Source: Herpetosiphonaceae bacterium (GTDB lineage Bacteria; Chloroflexota; Chloroflexia; Chloroflexales; Kallotenuaceae). From it: DNA of 43,079 bases. The notes beneath the pieces are model-generated. The model saw nothing but the letters and a program-made list of their open reading frames with translations, had not been told where the DNA came from and searched no databases. The translations under genes were made by a program, and so were the position numbers. The stretch lies in contig JACDGP010000039.1 of assembly GCA_013821605.1 (NCBI GenBank), forward strand, positions 1 through 43,079, given 5' to 3'. Below, piece after piece: positions 5,672 through 37,800 of the stretch (its first letter is position 1; every line of letters starts with the position of its first letter).

Positions 5672-8320
5672 ATGGAGCAATCCTTTTCATTCGGCAGTTG
5701 GCTCCGCCAGCGGCGCAAGATGCTCGACCTGACACAGGCCGAGCTCGCCCAGCAGCTCGGTTGCGCGACCATTACGCTCCAGAAGATCGAGCTAGATGAG
5801 CGCCGTCCCTCGAAGGAGATGGCGGAGCGGTTGGCAGATGTCCTGACGATTCCACCTGCCGAGCGCGCCGCCTTTCTCCAACGCACACGTGGCGAGCTCG
5901 CTGTCGACCAGCTGGTCGTCGCCGCTGTCCAGCCGGCTGCTCCCGCGCCCTGGCGTGACAAGCCCTGCCCCAGCCACCATCTGCCCGTCCCAGCCACGCC
6001 GCTTATCGGCCGCGTGCAGGAGGTGGCGGCGGTCGTAGCACGGCTTCGGGAGCCGAGCCTGCGGCTGCTGACGCTCACTGGTCCGGGCGGGATGGGCAAG
6101 ACCCGCCTCGCCCTGGCTGTCGCCGAGCAGTTCGTTGCCGTCTTTCCGGATGGTGTGACCTTCGTCGCCCTCGCGCCGATCAGTGACCCCGCGCTCGTGA
6201 TTCCCACCATCGCGCAGGCACTGAGAATCCGCGAGACGCGCGACCAGCCGCTGCTCGATCAGTTGGCTGCGGTCCTGCGCCACCATCGGACGCTGCTGGT
6301 ACTCGACAACTTTGAGCAGGTGCTCGCGGCGGCGCCCGACGTCGCCCGCCTGCTGGCTGCTGCACCCCGGCTGCAGGTGCTGGTCACCAGTCGAGCGGCG
6401 CTGCGTCTCTCGGGCGAGCAGGAGTATCCGGTCGCGCCCTTGGCTCTCCCCGACCGCGACCACCTGCCGAACTTGGCGGCGCTCACGCAGTATGATGCCG
6501 TGGCCCTCTTCATCCAGCGCGTCTGTGCTGTCAAGCCCGACTTCGAGGTGACCAACGCGAATGCGCTCGCAGTAGCCGAGATCTGCGCCCGGCTGGACGG
6601 CTTGCCATTGGCGATTGAACTGGCGGCCGCGCGCAGCCGCCTCTTTGCGCCCGCGGCGCTGCTGGCCCGCTTACGGAATCGCTTGCAGTTTTTGACTAGT
6701 GGCGCACGCGACCTGCCGCAGCGCCAGCAGACGATCCGCAACACCATCGCCTGGAGCTATGATCTGCTGGACGCGGCCCACCAGCAGTTCTTCCGGCGCC
6801 TCGCCGTGTTTGTGGGAGGCTGGACACTGGAGGCGGCGGAGACGGTCTGTAATGCCGACGACGCGCTAGGGGTCGATGTGCTGGACGGGCTGACGACCTT
6901 AGTCGAGCAGAGTCTGGTCCGCCAGGTGGATGGCCCCTATGGCGAGCCCCGTTTCCGCCGCCTGGAGACCATCCGCGAGTTTGCACTTGCGCAATTGACG
7001 GCGAGTGGCGAGGCTGGAGCGCTACGGTGGCAGCATGCCAGCTATTGCCTTGCACTCGTTGAGACGGCGGATCTAGAACTGCGTGAGCGCGAGCCGCGGA
7101 TCTGGCTGCAGCGCCTGGAAGCGGAACACGACAATCTGCGGGCGGCCCTCGCCTGGGCCGTGCAAGGGGCGCCAAATCCCGACGCGCCGCTGCTTGATGG
7201 CAGCGCCTCCGGCGAGTTGGGACTCCGGCTGTGCCACGCCCTTTGGGACTTCTGGCGCAGCCGAGGGTACCTGCGCGAGCAACGACAGTGGCTGGCCGCA
7301 GCCCTTGCCAGCACTGCAGGCAACGACCCAGCGCAGCGCCCCCTCCGGATGCGGGCACTGCGGGAAGCTGGCGAACTGGCGGAGGAGGCAGGTGACTGGG
7401 AGCAGGCGCAGGTGTTTTACCAGGAGGAACTGGGGCTGGCACGCACCCTGGGTGACACGCTTGATGCTGCAGAAACCCTCGTCCGGCTCGCACTTCTTGC
7501 GGACGACCAGAGTGATCAGCACGGATCCGCCCGGCTGCTCGACGAGAGTCTCGCGCTCTTCCATGAGATCGGGGCAGCAGCGTGGGGCATACATCCGTTG
7601 CACTACTTTGGCGTCGTCGGCCTCCAGTTGGGTGACTACGCGCGCGCGTTTGCACTGCTCGAAGACAGCCTGGCTCACTTTCAGCGGGTGAATGACCGGA
7701 CAGGCAGCGCCCACGCACTCAGGATATTGGGCACGACGGCGCGCGATCAGGGTGACTATGGGCGGGCCGAAGCATACTTGCTGGAGAGCTTGGCGCTCTT
7801 CCGCGAGGTGGGCGATAGGCCTTGGGTCGCAAGGATCCTCCATGGTCTGGGTGAGACCGCCCTGTTGCAGGAGCAGGATGTGCGCGCCTACGCGTTGGAA
7901 GCGGAGAGCTTGGTGCTTGTGCGGGAACTCGGCGACAAGCTCTTCGCGGCCTGGCCCTTGCTGAACCTGGGCCATATCGCCAAACATCAGGGTGATACGG
8001 TGCAGGCGCGTGCCCACGTAGTGGAAAGTCTGACGATCCTGCACGACGCAGGCAAAGTCTTCGGGATTGCGGCGTGTCTGGCTGGCTTGGCGGGGTGCGC
8101 AGGACGGCAGGATCAGCCGGCGCGAGCGGCGCGGCTCTTTGGCGCGGCGGCGCGGCTGGCCGTTGGGTATGCGCTGGCGCATCGCATCGAACTGGACAGC
8201 GACGTGGCGACGGCCCGGACTTTGATCGACCACGGAGCCTGGGAGGCCGCGTGGGCCGAGGGGCAGGCGCTGACGACTGAGCAGGCGGTCGCCTATGCGC
8301 TCGACGAGGCAGCCTTCTAA
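5672..8320 (+). CDS. HTH-STAND-TPR transcriptional regulator
   Basis: The product (882 residues from the ATG chosen here) has three parts. Residues 8-62 form an XRE-type helix-turn-helix ([18 protein letters not shown] and following). Residues 105-400 are a STAND/NB-ARC-like ATPase with P-loop GPGGMGKT at 137-144, Walker [10 protein letters not shown] around Asp212, a TSR sensor strand and the [12 protein letters not shown] motif. Residues 560-860 are TPR-like helical repeats (several units of GDYxxAxxLLEESL type). Such proteins bind a ligand or partner through the repeats, exchange nucleotide and switch DNA binding. GGAG lies five bases before the ATG at 5672; a longer in-frame start at 5621 has no such site. 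The 12-bp iterons upstream are a plausible autoregulatory site. Target genes are unknown; the divergent YVTN gene is the first candidate. Confidence 0.88.
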
Positions 8321-25101: not shown

Positions 25102-25380
25102 TCATATCTGCGTGATTTCGCGCATATTGCCCACACGTTGTAAACATGCGCATAAGTATAGCAAGCTTTGCAGCCGAGCGATATGGATGCAAAGACGCAG
25201 GATGAGCTGCCCGCACTGTGCAGCGACGCTCGTTGCAAAAGCGCGATCTAAAGCTTTCTTACCTAGCCATCGAATAATAGCTGGTGCATACCTGATGGGC
25301 GTAGCTCAGCAGGACTAGCGGCCCCTCATCACATCTCACCCGCGGCGGTATGATATACACATCACGCAACTGCGGGGCCA
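25102..25380. other. Intergenic region upstream of the riboswitch
   Basis: I see no convincing gene. A frame at 25202-25318 could encode 38 residues starting MSCPHCAATL, like one knuckle of a zinc ribbon, possibly a remnant. Overlapping its end, 25297-25320 resembles the first 24 bases of a tRNA (acceptor strand and D-arm) but nothing after it folds as one. TATGAT at 25349-25354 may be the -10 box for the riboswitch transcript; no good -35 is visible. Confidence 0.3.
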
Positions 25381-25385
25381 TGCCG

Positions 25386-25487
25386 CTCCACGGTTTACCG
25401 AACAGGCAAACCCGTCGTAAGGCGGGGACGCAAAGCCACGGGTCCAGGATTGTCTGGATAGCCGGGCTCCCGAATTAAACCGAGGAG
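25386..25487 (+). ncRNA. Cyclic-di-GMP-I (GEMM-I) riboswitch with the ribosome site in its P1 extension
   Basis: The core has the conserved GEMM text: ACAGGCAAACC, then a hairpin CCCGTC-GTAA-GGCGGG with a GNRA loop, the linker GGGACGCAAAGCC, a second helix with TCCAG/CTGGA ends, and TAGCCGGG. The closing helix P1 is CGGTTTA (25391-25397) with TAAACCG (25476-25482). This helix extends outward: CTCC (25386-25389) can pair with GGAG (25484-25487), the Shine-Dalgarno of the next gene, over one A-A mismatch. If ligand stabilises P1, the ribosome site is hidden, so cyclic-di-GMP should lower translation. That direction is an inference; identity of the aptamer is clear from conserved bases. It controls the secreted esterase starting seven bases after the SD. 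Confidence 0.9.
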
Positions 25488-25494
25488 TACCATC

Positions 25495-26400
25495 ATGCCA
25501 CGACGTTTCACGCTCGTACTCTTGACCATCATCTGCCTTACCGCTCTTAGCTCCAGGCAGAGCGCCCACGCCGCTACCCCCTGGAGCGGCCTCACGGACT
25601 ACACCATCCAAGTTGGTAGCTATCAACGTACCTATCATGTCCACCTTCCCGTCTCCTACACCGGCACGACCGCCCTGCCACTGGTCGTGGCCCTGCACGC
25701 CTCCAAGGACAACGGTCCGAATATGTCCGGCCTCACTCACTTCAACACGGTAGCCGATACCTATGGCGTCATCGCCGCATATCCAGATGCACTCAAGGGC
25801 GTTTGGAACATGGACGGGACCGCACCGCAAGACGACTTCGCCTTTATCTCGGCGATGATCCAGCAGCTGCGTAGCAGCTTCGCGGTGAATGCCCATCAGA
25901 TCTACGCGATGGGCTTTTCCGAGGGCGGCCAAATGACCGAGGAGTTAGGCTGCAACCTTAGTTCGCAATTGGCCGGCATTGCTTCCGTCTCCGGCCACAT
26001 GTCCAGCACCTATGCCTGCCCAGTCGCTCATCCCATGCCCTACCTTACCTTTCATGGCACAGCTGACACCATCTGGTCCTATACCGGGTGGGCCGGCCTC
26101 AGAGATGGCAAGCACTTGATGGGCGCAACCGATGCTCAGAACAAGTGGGCTTCGCTTGCCTCCTGCACCGCCCCTGCCACCACAACCAACATGCCCAATA
26201 CCGTGCTGACCGATGGTACGACCGAACAACTGCGTGCGATTGGCGGATGCGCAAGCGGTGTTCAGACGCAGTTGTACACCATCACCAATGGTGGCCACAC
26301 CTGGCCGGGCGGTCAACTCTTACCATGGTTTGGGCTGACGAGCCTCGACATTGATGCCAGCACCCTGATCTGGCAATTCTTCGCACAGTATCAAAACTGA
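25495..26400 (+). CDS. Secreted PHB-depolymerase-family esterase
   Basis: The 301-residue protein has a signal peptide (hydrophobic core, cleavage near SAHA-AT) and an alpha/beta hydrolase of the poly(3-hydroxybutyrate) depolymerase/feruloyl esterase (LpqC-like) family. The catalytic Ser142 is in GFSEGGQM, Asp191 in HGTADTIW and His268 in GGHTWPGG. Substrates in this family are polyester chains or plant-wall feruloyl and acetyl esters. It is monocistronic, lies under the cyclic-di-GMP riboswitch, and is followed by a hairpin at 26454-26480. Regulation by cyclic-di-GMP suggests that secretion is tied to the surface-attached or developmental state. Confidence 0.88.
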   Translation: MPRRFTLVLLTIICLTALSSRQSAHAATPWSGLTDYTIQVGSYQRTYHVHLPVSYTGTTALPLVVALHASKDNGPNMSGLTHFNTVADTYGVIAAYPDALKGVWNMDGTAPQDDFAFISAMIQQLRSSFAVNAHQIYAMGFSEGGQMTEELGCNLSSQLAGIASVSGHMSSTYACPVAHPMPYLTFHGTADTIWSYTGWAGLRDGKHLMGATDAQNKWASLASCTAPATTTNMPNTVLTDGTTEQLRAIGGCASGVQTQLYTITNGGHTWPGGQLLPWFGLTSLDIDASTLIWQFFAQYQN

Positions 26401-34826: not shown

Positions 34827-37800
34827 ATGCCCCACATTTTCGATAACATTGAAGCACCACTATTGCCCGCGTTGCGTGCTACGCTCCAAGAATCCTATCG
34901 CGCCGACTTTTGTATCGGCTACTTTAACCTACGGGGCTGGGAGCAGCTCGCCGCATCGGTTGACCATCTTGCTGGTACTCCCGAATCCTGTTGCCGACTG
35001 CTGGTCGGCATGCACCGAGTACCGGAAGACGCCATGCGCGAGGCCCAGCGCGCTGTACGGCGTGATGAATCCCTCGATGGTCCCACCATTGCGCGGCTGC
35101 ACACCAAAGCAGCCCGCAGCTTTCGTGAACAGTTAGAGTTTGGCGTACCGTCGGCCCGCGCGCAAGGGGCACTACGGAAGCTGGCCGAGCAACTGCGTGT
35201 ACATAAGGTTCAGGTCAAACTCTTTCTGCAATATCCGCTGCACGCCAAGCTCTATCTCTTACATCGCCATGATCGCATCACCCCACTTGTCGGCTACGTC
35301 GGCTCAAGCAACTTGACGCTTTCTGGCCTCCTCTCTCAGGGTGAGCTCAATGTCGATGTAGTCGAGCAGGATGCTGCCGTCAAGCTCCAGCATTGGTTTG
35401 ATGAGCGTTGGGATGATCGCTTGGCTTTCGACATTTCGGCTGAGTTGGTCGAGTTGATCGAAACCAGTTGGGCGGCTGATCGCCTCATCCAACCTTATCA
35501 CGTCTACCTCAAGATGGCCTACCATCTGAGCGAGGAGGCTCGTCGTGGTGAACGCGAATTCAAGCCGACGCCTGAGTTTAGGGATGTGTTGCTGCCATTC
35601 CAAGAGAAAGCAGTCTCCCTCGCCGCCTACTATCTCCAGCGGCGGGGCGGCGTACTGCTCGGTGACGTTGTTGGCCTCGGCAAGACGCTCATGGCTACCG
35701 CCGTCGCCAAGATTTTCCAGCAGGATGACAACAGCAACACACTAATTATCTGCCCGCCGAAGCTCCAGGAGATGTGGGAGTGGTACGTCGGGCAATACCA
35801 TCTCGCGGCACGCGTCCTTTCGCTGGGCCGTGTAATCGAAGATCTGCCCGGCCTGCTGCGCTATCGCCTGGTGATCATCGATGAAAGTCACAACTTGCGC
35901 AATCGCGAAGGCAAGCGCTATAGTGCAGTCCGCGACTACATCGTGCGCAACGAATCGCAGGTCTTGCTGCTCACGGCCACGCCCTATAACAAGCAATACA
36001 CCGATTTGAGCAACCAATTGCGCCTGTTCCTGGACGAAGACCAGGATCTGCATGTGCGCCCCGAGCAGTTTTTTCAGACCTGGACCGAGCGCGGACGCAA
36101 CGAGGCCGACTTCGTCGCCGATTTTCAAACGTCGCCTCGTTCGATTCGTGCCTTTGAGCAAAGCACCTTTCCTGACGATTGGCGCGATTTGATGCGACTG
36201 TTTTTGGTACGCCGTACACGCCAGTTCATCATCCGCAACTACGCGCAATGGGATGCAGATCGGCAGCGGTCGTTCGTGCTGCTCAATGGTCAACCATCCT
36301 ACTTTCCCTTACGCCAACCTAAAACCGTGCAATTCGCCCTAGACGAAACTGATGCTGGCGACCAGTACGCCCGCCTTTATCGCGACGAGGTCGTTGATGC
36401 TATCGGCGATCTAGCCCTGCCGCGCTACAATCTGGCCGAGTTTTTCATCGCGAATCCGCAGCGGCGTGCGAATGCCCAGGAAAAGCGCATCATCGACAAC
36501 CTTGAGCGTGCCGGACGCCGTCTGCGTGGCTTTAGCCGCTCGAATCTCTTTAAGCGCCTGGAGTCAAGCGGCTATAGCTTTTTGCGCTCGCTGGATCACC
36601 ACATTTTGCGCAACATGATTACCTTACACGCCCTTGAACATAACGAGCTGGTGCCGATTGGCACCCAAAATGCTGCCTTGCTCGATCCCTTCGTGCGCGA
36701 CGTAGACGACGAGGAAGCCAGCGAGGAGCTTGCGGGTAGTAGCGAGAACGACACGCCTACCAGCATTGAAACTCCCGTGTTTGCTTCTGATCTAGATACC
36801 TATCGCGACCGTGCGGCGCAGGCTTACCGTGCCTACCGCGCTGACTTTGAACGTCGTTTCACCTGGCTGCCTGCCAAGTTCTTTCAAGCCCAGCTCAAGC
36901 AAACGCTGCGCAACGATGCTGAAGCCTTGCTTGCTATCCTGCAGGAGGTAGGCGTCTGGCAGCCCGCGTACGACGTGAAGATGAATGCCCTGTATGAGCT
37001 CATCGTCCAGACCCATCCGCACGATAAGCTACTCATCTTCACACAGTTTGCCGATACTGCGCACTATCTCGGCGAACTCCTTGCGGCTCGTGGCTTGACC
37101 CGCTTTGCGGTTGCTACCGGCCAGTCCGGTGACCCAACGGCCTTAGCTCGTCGCTTTAGCCCCCACAGTAATGGTGGGCTACGACCGGGTGAAACCGAAT
37201 TGCGTGTGCTGGTCGCGACCGATGTGCTGGGCGAAGGTCAGAACTTGCAAGACTCGCACGTGGTCGTCAACTTTGATCTGCCGTGGGCCATTATTCGCTT
37301 GATCCAGCGTGCGGGGCGTGTTGATCGCATTGGGCAAAAGCAAGATACCATCAACGTCTATTCCTTCTTGCCCGCCGAAGGCATCGAGCGCATTATTCGC
37401 CTGCGCTCGCGGCTGACCGAGCGCCTAAGCCACTTTCACGAGGTCATCGGTTCGGATGAGACCTTCTTCGGTGAAGATGCCGCCTTGAAGTTGCGCGATT
37501 TGTACACCGAACAGCAAGGTGTGCTCGATGAAGACGATGATAGCGATGTTGACCTAGCGAGCGTGGCCTTACAGGTCTGGAACAGCGCCTCGGATGCCGA
37601 TCGTGGTGCTGCCGAACGCTTGCCGCCGGTGATTGCAGCCGCTCGTTCGGTCAGTGATGGCGTGGTTTCCGGTGATGGGCAGCCCGGCGTCATTACCTAT
37701 CTCCGTTTCCCCGATGGCACCGATGCCCTCGTCCATGTGAATGCCGCCGGTAATCTCGTCGGCCAATCACTCTCACGTGCATTTCGCTCTGCCGCCTGCG

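Follow-up and report, generated by a model that had tools for sequence, protein, structure and literature searches.

A candidate c-di-GMP-I OFF riboswitch with a Shine-Dalgarno sequence in its extended P1 helix and a competing upstream hairpin, preceding a secreted esterase gene in Chloroflexota

Background

The c-di-GMP-I riboswitch Vc2 of Vibrio cholerae, located upstream of tfoY, is described in PMC9262584 (citing Inuzuka et al. 2018) as a translational OFF switch in which the stability of the P1 helix is decisive. In the direct-occlusion riboswitches (SAM-II, SAM-III, preQ1-I of T. tengcongensis, and preQ1-II), the fold that the ligand stabilises includes the ribosome site itself (PMC10907184). 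No description of a Shine-Dalgarno (SD) sequence embedded in P1 together with a 5′ competitor was found for the c-di-GMP-I class in the mostly open-access literature searched.

The DNA analysed here, referred to as the window, is a stretch of 43,079 nt from a Herpetosiphonaceae bacterium of the Chloroflexota (assembly GCA_013821605.1, contig JACDGP010000039.1), and all positions in it are given on the forward (+) strand. The leader at approximately 25361–25494 was interpreted, with a probability of roughly 0.6, as a translational c-di-GMP-I OFF riboswitch that lowers the synthesis of a secreted esterase by exchange between an upstream hairpin, P0, and P1. Other genomes, contigs, and loci are denoted by G, C, and L numbers, respectively.

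Results

The gene following the leader (25495–26400) encodes a protein of 301 aa with a Sec-type signal peptide and a GFSEGG nucleophile motif. The protein narrowly passed PF10503 (25 bits, cut-off 23), which places it in the PHB depolymerase family, and PF02230 (29 bits, cut-off 23); its NF050058 score of 137.6 bits was below the cut-off of 150, and its nearest solved relative was the feruloyl esterase 9j07. The secreted PHB-depolymerase-type esterase named in an earlier sequence-only reading of this DNA was thus upheld by the PF10503 match and the signal peptide. A probable −10 element, TATGAT, was read at 25349–25354, and the block GGTATNNTATNNACATCA recurs upstream of the paralogues C145, C212, and C122. 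Transcription is expected to start near 25361. No site passed a sigma-70 consensus scan of the leader promoter, and the −35 element is therefore weak or absent.

The sole Rfam RNA in the window was the element at 25396–25475. The covariance model RF01051 (c-di-GMP-I, GEMM-I) matched at 25395–25474 with 75.2 bits (cut-off 35), and the aptamer as a whole (25395–25475) comprises the helices P2 (25406–25431) and P3 (25434–25468). The canonical ligand contacts are present as G25405, A25432, and C25470, which we take to be Vc2 positions 20, 47, and 92 from our own alignment to the Vc2 sequence. The model score and the contact bases agree with the GEMM-I aptamer with a conserved core proposed earlier, and the element is, judged by its bases, an ordinary c-di-GMP-I aptamer with c-di-GMP as the predicted ligand. 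The source genome has 11 GGDEF domains, so c-di-GMP is likely made by the host.

The 5′ strand of a P1 extension lies at 25385–25397 and consists of the anti-SD GCUCC, a mismatched A, and the clamp CGGUUUA. Opposite it are the 3′ strand of the clamp, UAAACCG (25476–25482), and the SD sequence AGGAG (25483–25488, with GGAG at 25484–25487), placed 7 nt before the ATG at 25495. CUCC (25386–25389) pairs with GGAG, and CGGUUUA (25391–25397) pairs with UAAACCG; with the additional G25385·U25488 pair, the extension has 12 pairs and one mismatch (A25390·A25483), continues the aptamer P1, and covers the SD, which was paired in the folds when P1 was closed. Dinucleotide-shuffled 5′ flanks reached the duplex energy of the extension in 0.6% of cases (p = 0.006) and shuffled 3′ flanks in 0 of 5000 (p < 0.0002). 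The trap was also included in the minimum-energy fold of 25375–25500 (z = −3.3), and none of 200 shuffles was as good. The pairing of CTCC-A-CGGTTTA with TAAACCG-A-GGAG over the SD, pointed out in the sequence-only reading, is thereby confirmed beyond shuffles. In three homologues taken singly, the extension was not significant against shuffles (p 0.07–0.32). No covariation was found in the extension, two pairs of which are broken in C165.

Folding also predicted an anti-sequester hairpin, P0, at 25368–25395: AACUG-C-GGGGC(CAUGCC)GCUCC-A-CGGUU. P0 occupies the 5′ strand of the trap, anti-SD included, except for its last two bases, and the two helices are mutually exclusive. When growing transcripts from 25360 were folded, P0 had a probability of 0.8–1.0 for almost every 3′ end as far as 25484 (it fell to 0.31 at 25420), and the P1 extension one of 1.0 from 25488; the SD-free fold thus forms first and the trap follows. 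The bare aptamer with P0 and the bare aptamer with the trap differ by 1.2 kcal/mol (−45.0 vs −46.2 kcal/mol). In the ensemble of the full-length RNA, the trap is favoured over P0 by ~8 kcal/mol because of additional pairing, both in P1 and near the start codon. The barrier for direct ON-to-OFF conversion was estimated at 8 kcal/mol, which is low and counts against the preferred reading.

In the paralogous leaders C165, C145, and C180, P0 is kept, with 90% of the cells paired (37–53% in slid controls). Covariation among the four sequences was limited to one double change (C-G to U-A, in C145) and four one-sided changes, and the control was not passed with so few sequences, as 267 of 500 shuffles did as well; each sequence, judged by P0 alone, beat its shuffles by a small margin only (p 0.05–0.2). 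P0 is likely a real element, and the homologues of the window leader carry comparable competitors. The sequence-only reading had held that no separate expression platform is needed, a view that the folds did not support: P0 takes up the greater part of the trap's 5′ strand and is predicted to dominate until the SD is transcribed. An expression platform therefore probably exists, and it would lie 5′ of the aptamer.

In a sister genus, two leaders (G052:C27 and G052:C149) have the clamp GGUUUA/UAGACC and an SD placed as in the window. The former precedes a secreted GHL15 glycosyl hydrolase (PF14885, 79.4 bits) and the latter a close relative of it, a protein that differs from the esterase. A scan of the genome collection for close esterase relatives returned only one distant Ktedonobacteria locus, and hence no close leader homologue was found outside family f1. 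Aptamers of the c-di-GMP-I type were present in 31 of 158 genomes of the taxonomic class and in 90 genomes of a 400-genome sample of the phylum. An SD and a start codon followed within 60 nt in 39 of 151 aptamers. The SD is at or inside the P1 end also in G402:C99, G090:C102, G281:C96, G469:C37, and G236:C3, which, like the window leader, have a complementary 5′ flank but shorter extensions. With the four leaders and this handful elsewhere, the arrangement recurs.

Position 20 was G in 137 of the 151 aptamers, A in 11, and C in three, and A47 was found in nearly all. An A at position 20, seen for example in G448:C23:60717, G355:C4:148225, and G299:C3:27312, is the mark of cGAMP-type GEMM riboswitches. 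A C at this position was also found in the tandem pair at G485:C6:36930-37019 and 37101-37191 (L140). In four genomes of one genus, an aptamer and a 5′ UTR of ~290–330 nt precede a sigma-factor-like gene, by reading a probable RNA polymerase sigma factor: L068 (G053:C99:4186), G054:C1078:7683, G055:C221:111921, and L082 (G052:C37:37319). Tandem c-di-GMP-I riboswitches precede a secreted protein in L066 (G053:C118:8688 and 8869) and L069 (G052:C140:922 and 1099), where the first seems to be of the terminator type and the second translational; the protein in G053 carries thrombospondin-3-like calcium repeats. In L071 (G052:C148:43613-43707), an aptamer scoring only 35 bits, in which an insertion of ~14 bases forming a small hairpin lies between P2 and P3, adjoins a normal one; a subtilisin-like protease is encoded next.

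Ligand was modelled as an energy bonus added to every structure with P2 and P1 closed. For the GEMM class, a bonus of 4–8 kcal/mol corresponds approximately to affinities in the nanomolar to picomolar range when the ligand is micromolar. The equilibrium model of the full-length RNA gave an open SD in the window copy at ~2e-6 without ligand and ~6e-7 with it. As it is trapped in both cases, switching would be kinetic (via P0) or depend on an unstable ligand-free P1. With a bonus of 8 kcal/mol, SD opening fell from 0.98 to 0.002 in G052:C27 and from 0.93 to 0.013 in G052:C149, and these two leaders would, according to the model, act as textbook cases of balanced OFF switches. The SD of C165 did not respond (0.065 and 0.074 without and with the bonus), and its trap appears uncoupled in the model. 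Modelling thus best supports the OFF mechanism for the architecture, and less well for the window copy.

Fourteen esterase matches, the window gene included, were found in the source genome, seven of them close to the window gene (63–79% identity). C165 is the only other esterase leader that keeps the riboswitch (RF01051, 66 bits, 7249–7328; L005); its aptamer has C at position 20 and lacks one pair of P2, and two clamp pairs are C·A. Leaders of similar length without an aptamer precede the paralogues C145 (L086), C212 (L087), C41 (L088), and C180 (L089), in which an Rfam search at thresholds as loose as E = 10 returned no riboswitch. Kinship to the window leader, scored without the SD end, was evident for C180 (z = 9.5), C145 (6.7), and C212 (4.0), and doubtful for C41 (2.3). 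P0, the anti-SD, and the SD end are kept in C145 and C180; P0 and the anti-SD are both lost in C212 and C41; and all four retain AAGGAGTA and a hairpin located roughly where P3 would be. On the simplest reading, the aptamer was lost after duplication and the anti-SD was then hidden in P0 or removed. The order of these changes was not resolved by the protein tree.

A CRP-like palindrome (AGTGAAATCTATCACA and similar) follows the probable −10 element, ~120–170 nt before the ATG, in L089, L087, L086, and L088, and is absent from both riboswitch-type leaders. The two exact matches to its pattern in the genome are both in aptamer-less esterase leaders, and it possibly reflects a change of regulator in these paralogues. 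In L091 (G000:C122:13865-15559), the promoter-like block is fused to the middle of a truncated esterase gene, probably a pseudogene.

Discussion

As the P1 helix runs into the ribosome site, c-di-GMP probably turns the gene off, and with the SD inside the extended P1, the OFF direction suggested by the sequence-only reading is the best-supported one. In the proposed mechanism, the 5′ end of the nascent RNA would fold first into P0, which would hold GCUCC-A-CGGUU, and P2 and P3 of the aptamer would fold thereafter. The emerging UAAACCG-A-GGAG would exchange into the GCUCC-A-CGGUU strand, closing P1 and continuing over the SD. If c-di-GMP binds the aptamer, and binds well only when P1 is closed, it would drive the P0-to-P1 exchange; without it, P0 would leave the SD free at least temporarily, and may last long enough for ribosomes to load.

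That the ligand is what closes the trap, as also proposed earlier, finds no support in the energy model, which closes the window copy without it. The alternative that survives best, although we consider it rather unlikely, is that this copy is locked OFF, its strong extension trapping the SD regardless and the aptamer being a relic or fine-tuning a very low basal level. Such a state would fit an SD open at only ~2e-6 irrespective of ligand in the model, a 12-pair extension stronger (−15.3 kcal/mol) than those of three homologues (−5.6 to −12.2 kcal/mol), and the decay of the same leader in other paralogues. It fits less well with an aptamer core, three contact bases, and a P0 that are all intact. 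The energy model, moreover, probably overrates the ligand-free P1 of the GEMM-I class: in the pilM aptamer, P1 was visible only with ligand (PMC9262584), and a ligand-free P1 weaker than calculated is plausible here.

It is improbable that the SD pairing is incidental and that the aptamer acts by another route, such as transcription termination, Rho, or mRNA decay. A downstream hairpin followed by a T run is indeed found instead in many GEMM-I relatives of the taxonomic class, but a scan found no terminator-like site between the aptamer and the ATG, which are 20 nt apart, and the extension exceeds chance and recurs at the same position in the sister genus.

Recognition of another cyclic dinucleotide, as the label c-di-GMP-I-GGC might suggest, is still less probable. 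RF03167, the model with this label, passed its cut-off at 25396–25475 (65.8 vs 59 bits) and was named best of the clan by cmscan, in which models that overlap compete within their clan, RF01051 being the parent model. RF01051 gives more bits, however, and the base at position 20 is G instead of the A that marks cGAMP riboswitches. The RF03167 consensus GACGCGAAGCC has G where the window, GACGCAAAGCC, has A25432 at the position of Vc2 A47; the window base is therefore that of an ordinary c-di-GMP riboswitch and not of the GGC type, whose letters presumably denote the bases at positions 20, 47, and 92. RF03167 was rejected as the true family, as its diagnostic G is missing and RF01051 scores higher. 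The weakest alternative, an ON switch in which ligand binding opens the SD, is very hard to reconcile with an SD in the strand continuing the ligand-stabilised P1 and a modelled cost of 9.6 kcal/mol for closed P1 with the SD open rather than trapped, even though GEMM-I aptamers serve both ON and OFF switches (PMC9262584).

Beyond the preferred OFF reading of the window copy, we tentatively propose a leader type with a 5′ platform, in which P0 would fold before P1 and give way to it once ligand closes P1. It may have spread with the duplicated secreted esterase, some copies losing the aptamer core but not P0 and the SD end; the genome would then show successive stages of escape from the riboswitch, with a trapped leader in C128, an uncoupled one in C165, and aptamer-free ones in C145, C180, C212, and C41. 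Intact, altered, and eroded leaders of one esterase family in one genome would offer a natural series for the loss of riboswitch control. The locus would tie secreted hydrolases to c-di-GMP in a lineage of Chloroflexota that has been little studied, where c-di-GMP-I aptamers are found upstream of esterases, GHL15 glycosyl hydrolases, and subtilisin-like proteases as well as a probable sigma factor, and high c-di-GMP would restrain enzymes that could attack a matrix or external polymer.

The window leader shares with Vc2 the aptamer class and, in the proposed mechanism, translational OFF control and a decisive role of P1 stability. In Vc2, as far as the cited account describes it, the ribosome site is masked at a distance from the aptamer, whereas the window SD is in the helix continuing P1, and the window leader has in addition a competing hairpin 5′ of the aptamer. 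As in direct-occlusion riboswitches, the ribosome site would belong to the ligand-stabilised fold; unlike in those, it lies in a helix added on to the conserved aptamer and not in the aptamer itself, with P0 as a strand-exchange partner. Translational OFF control through P1 is thus already known from Vc2, and the direct continuation of P1 over the SD, combined with a 5′ competitor, is possibly a variant of it.
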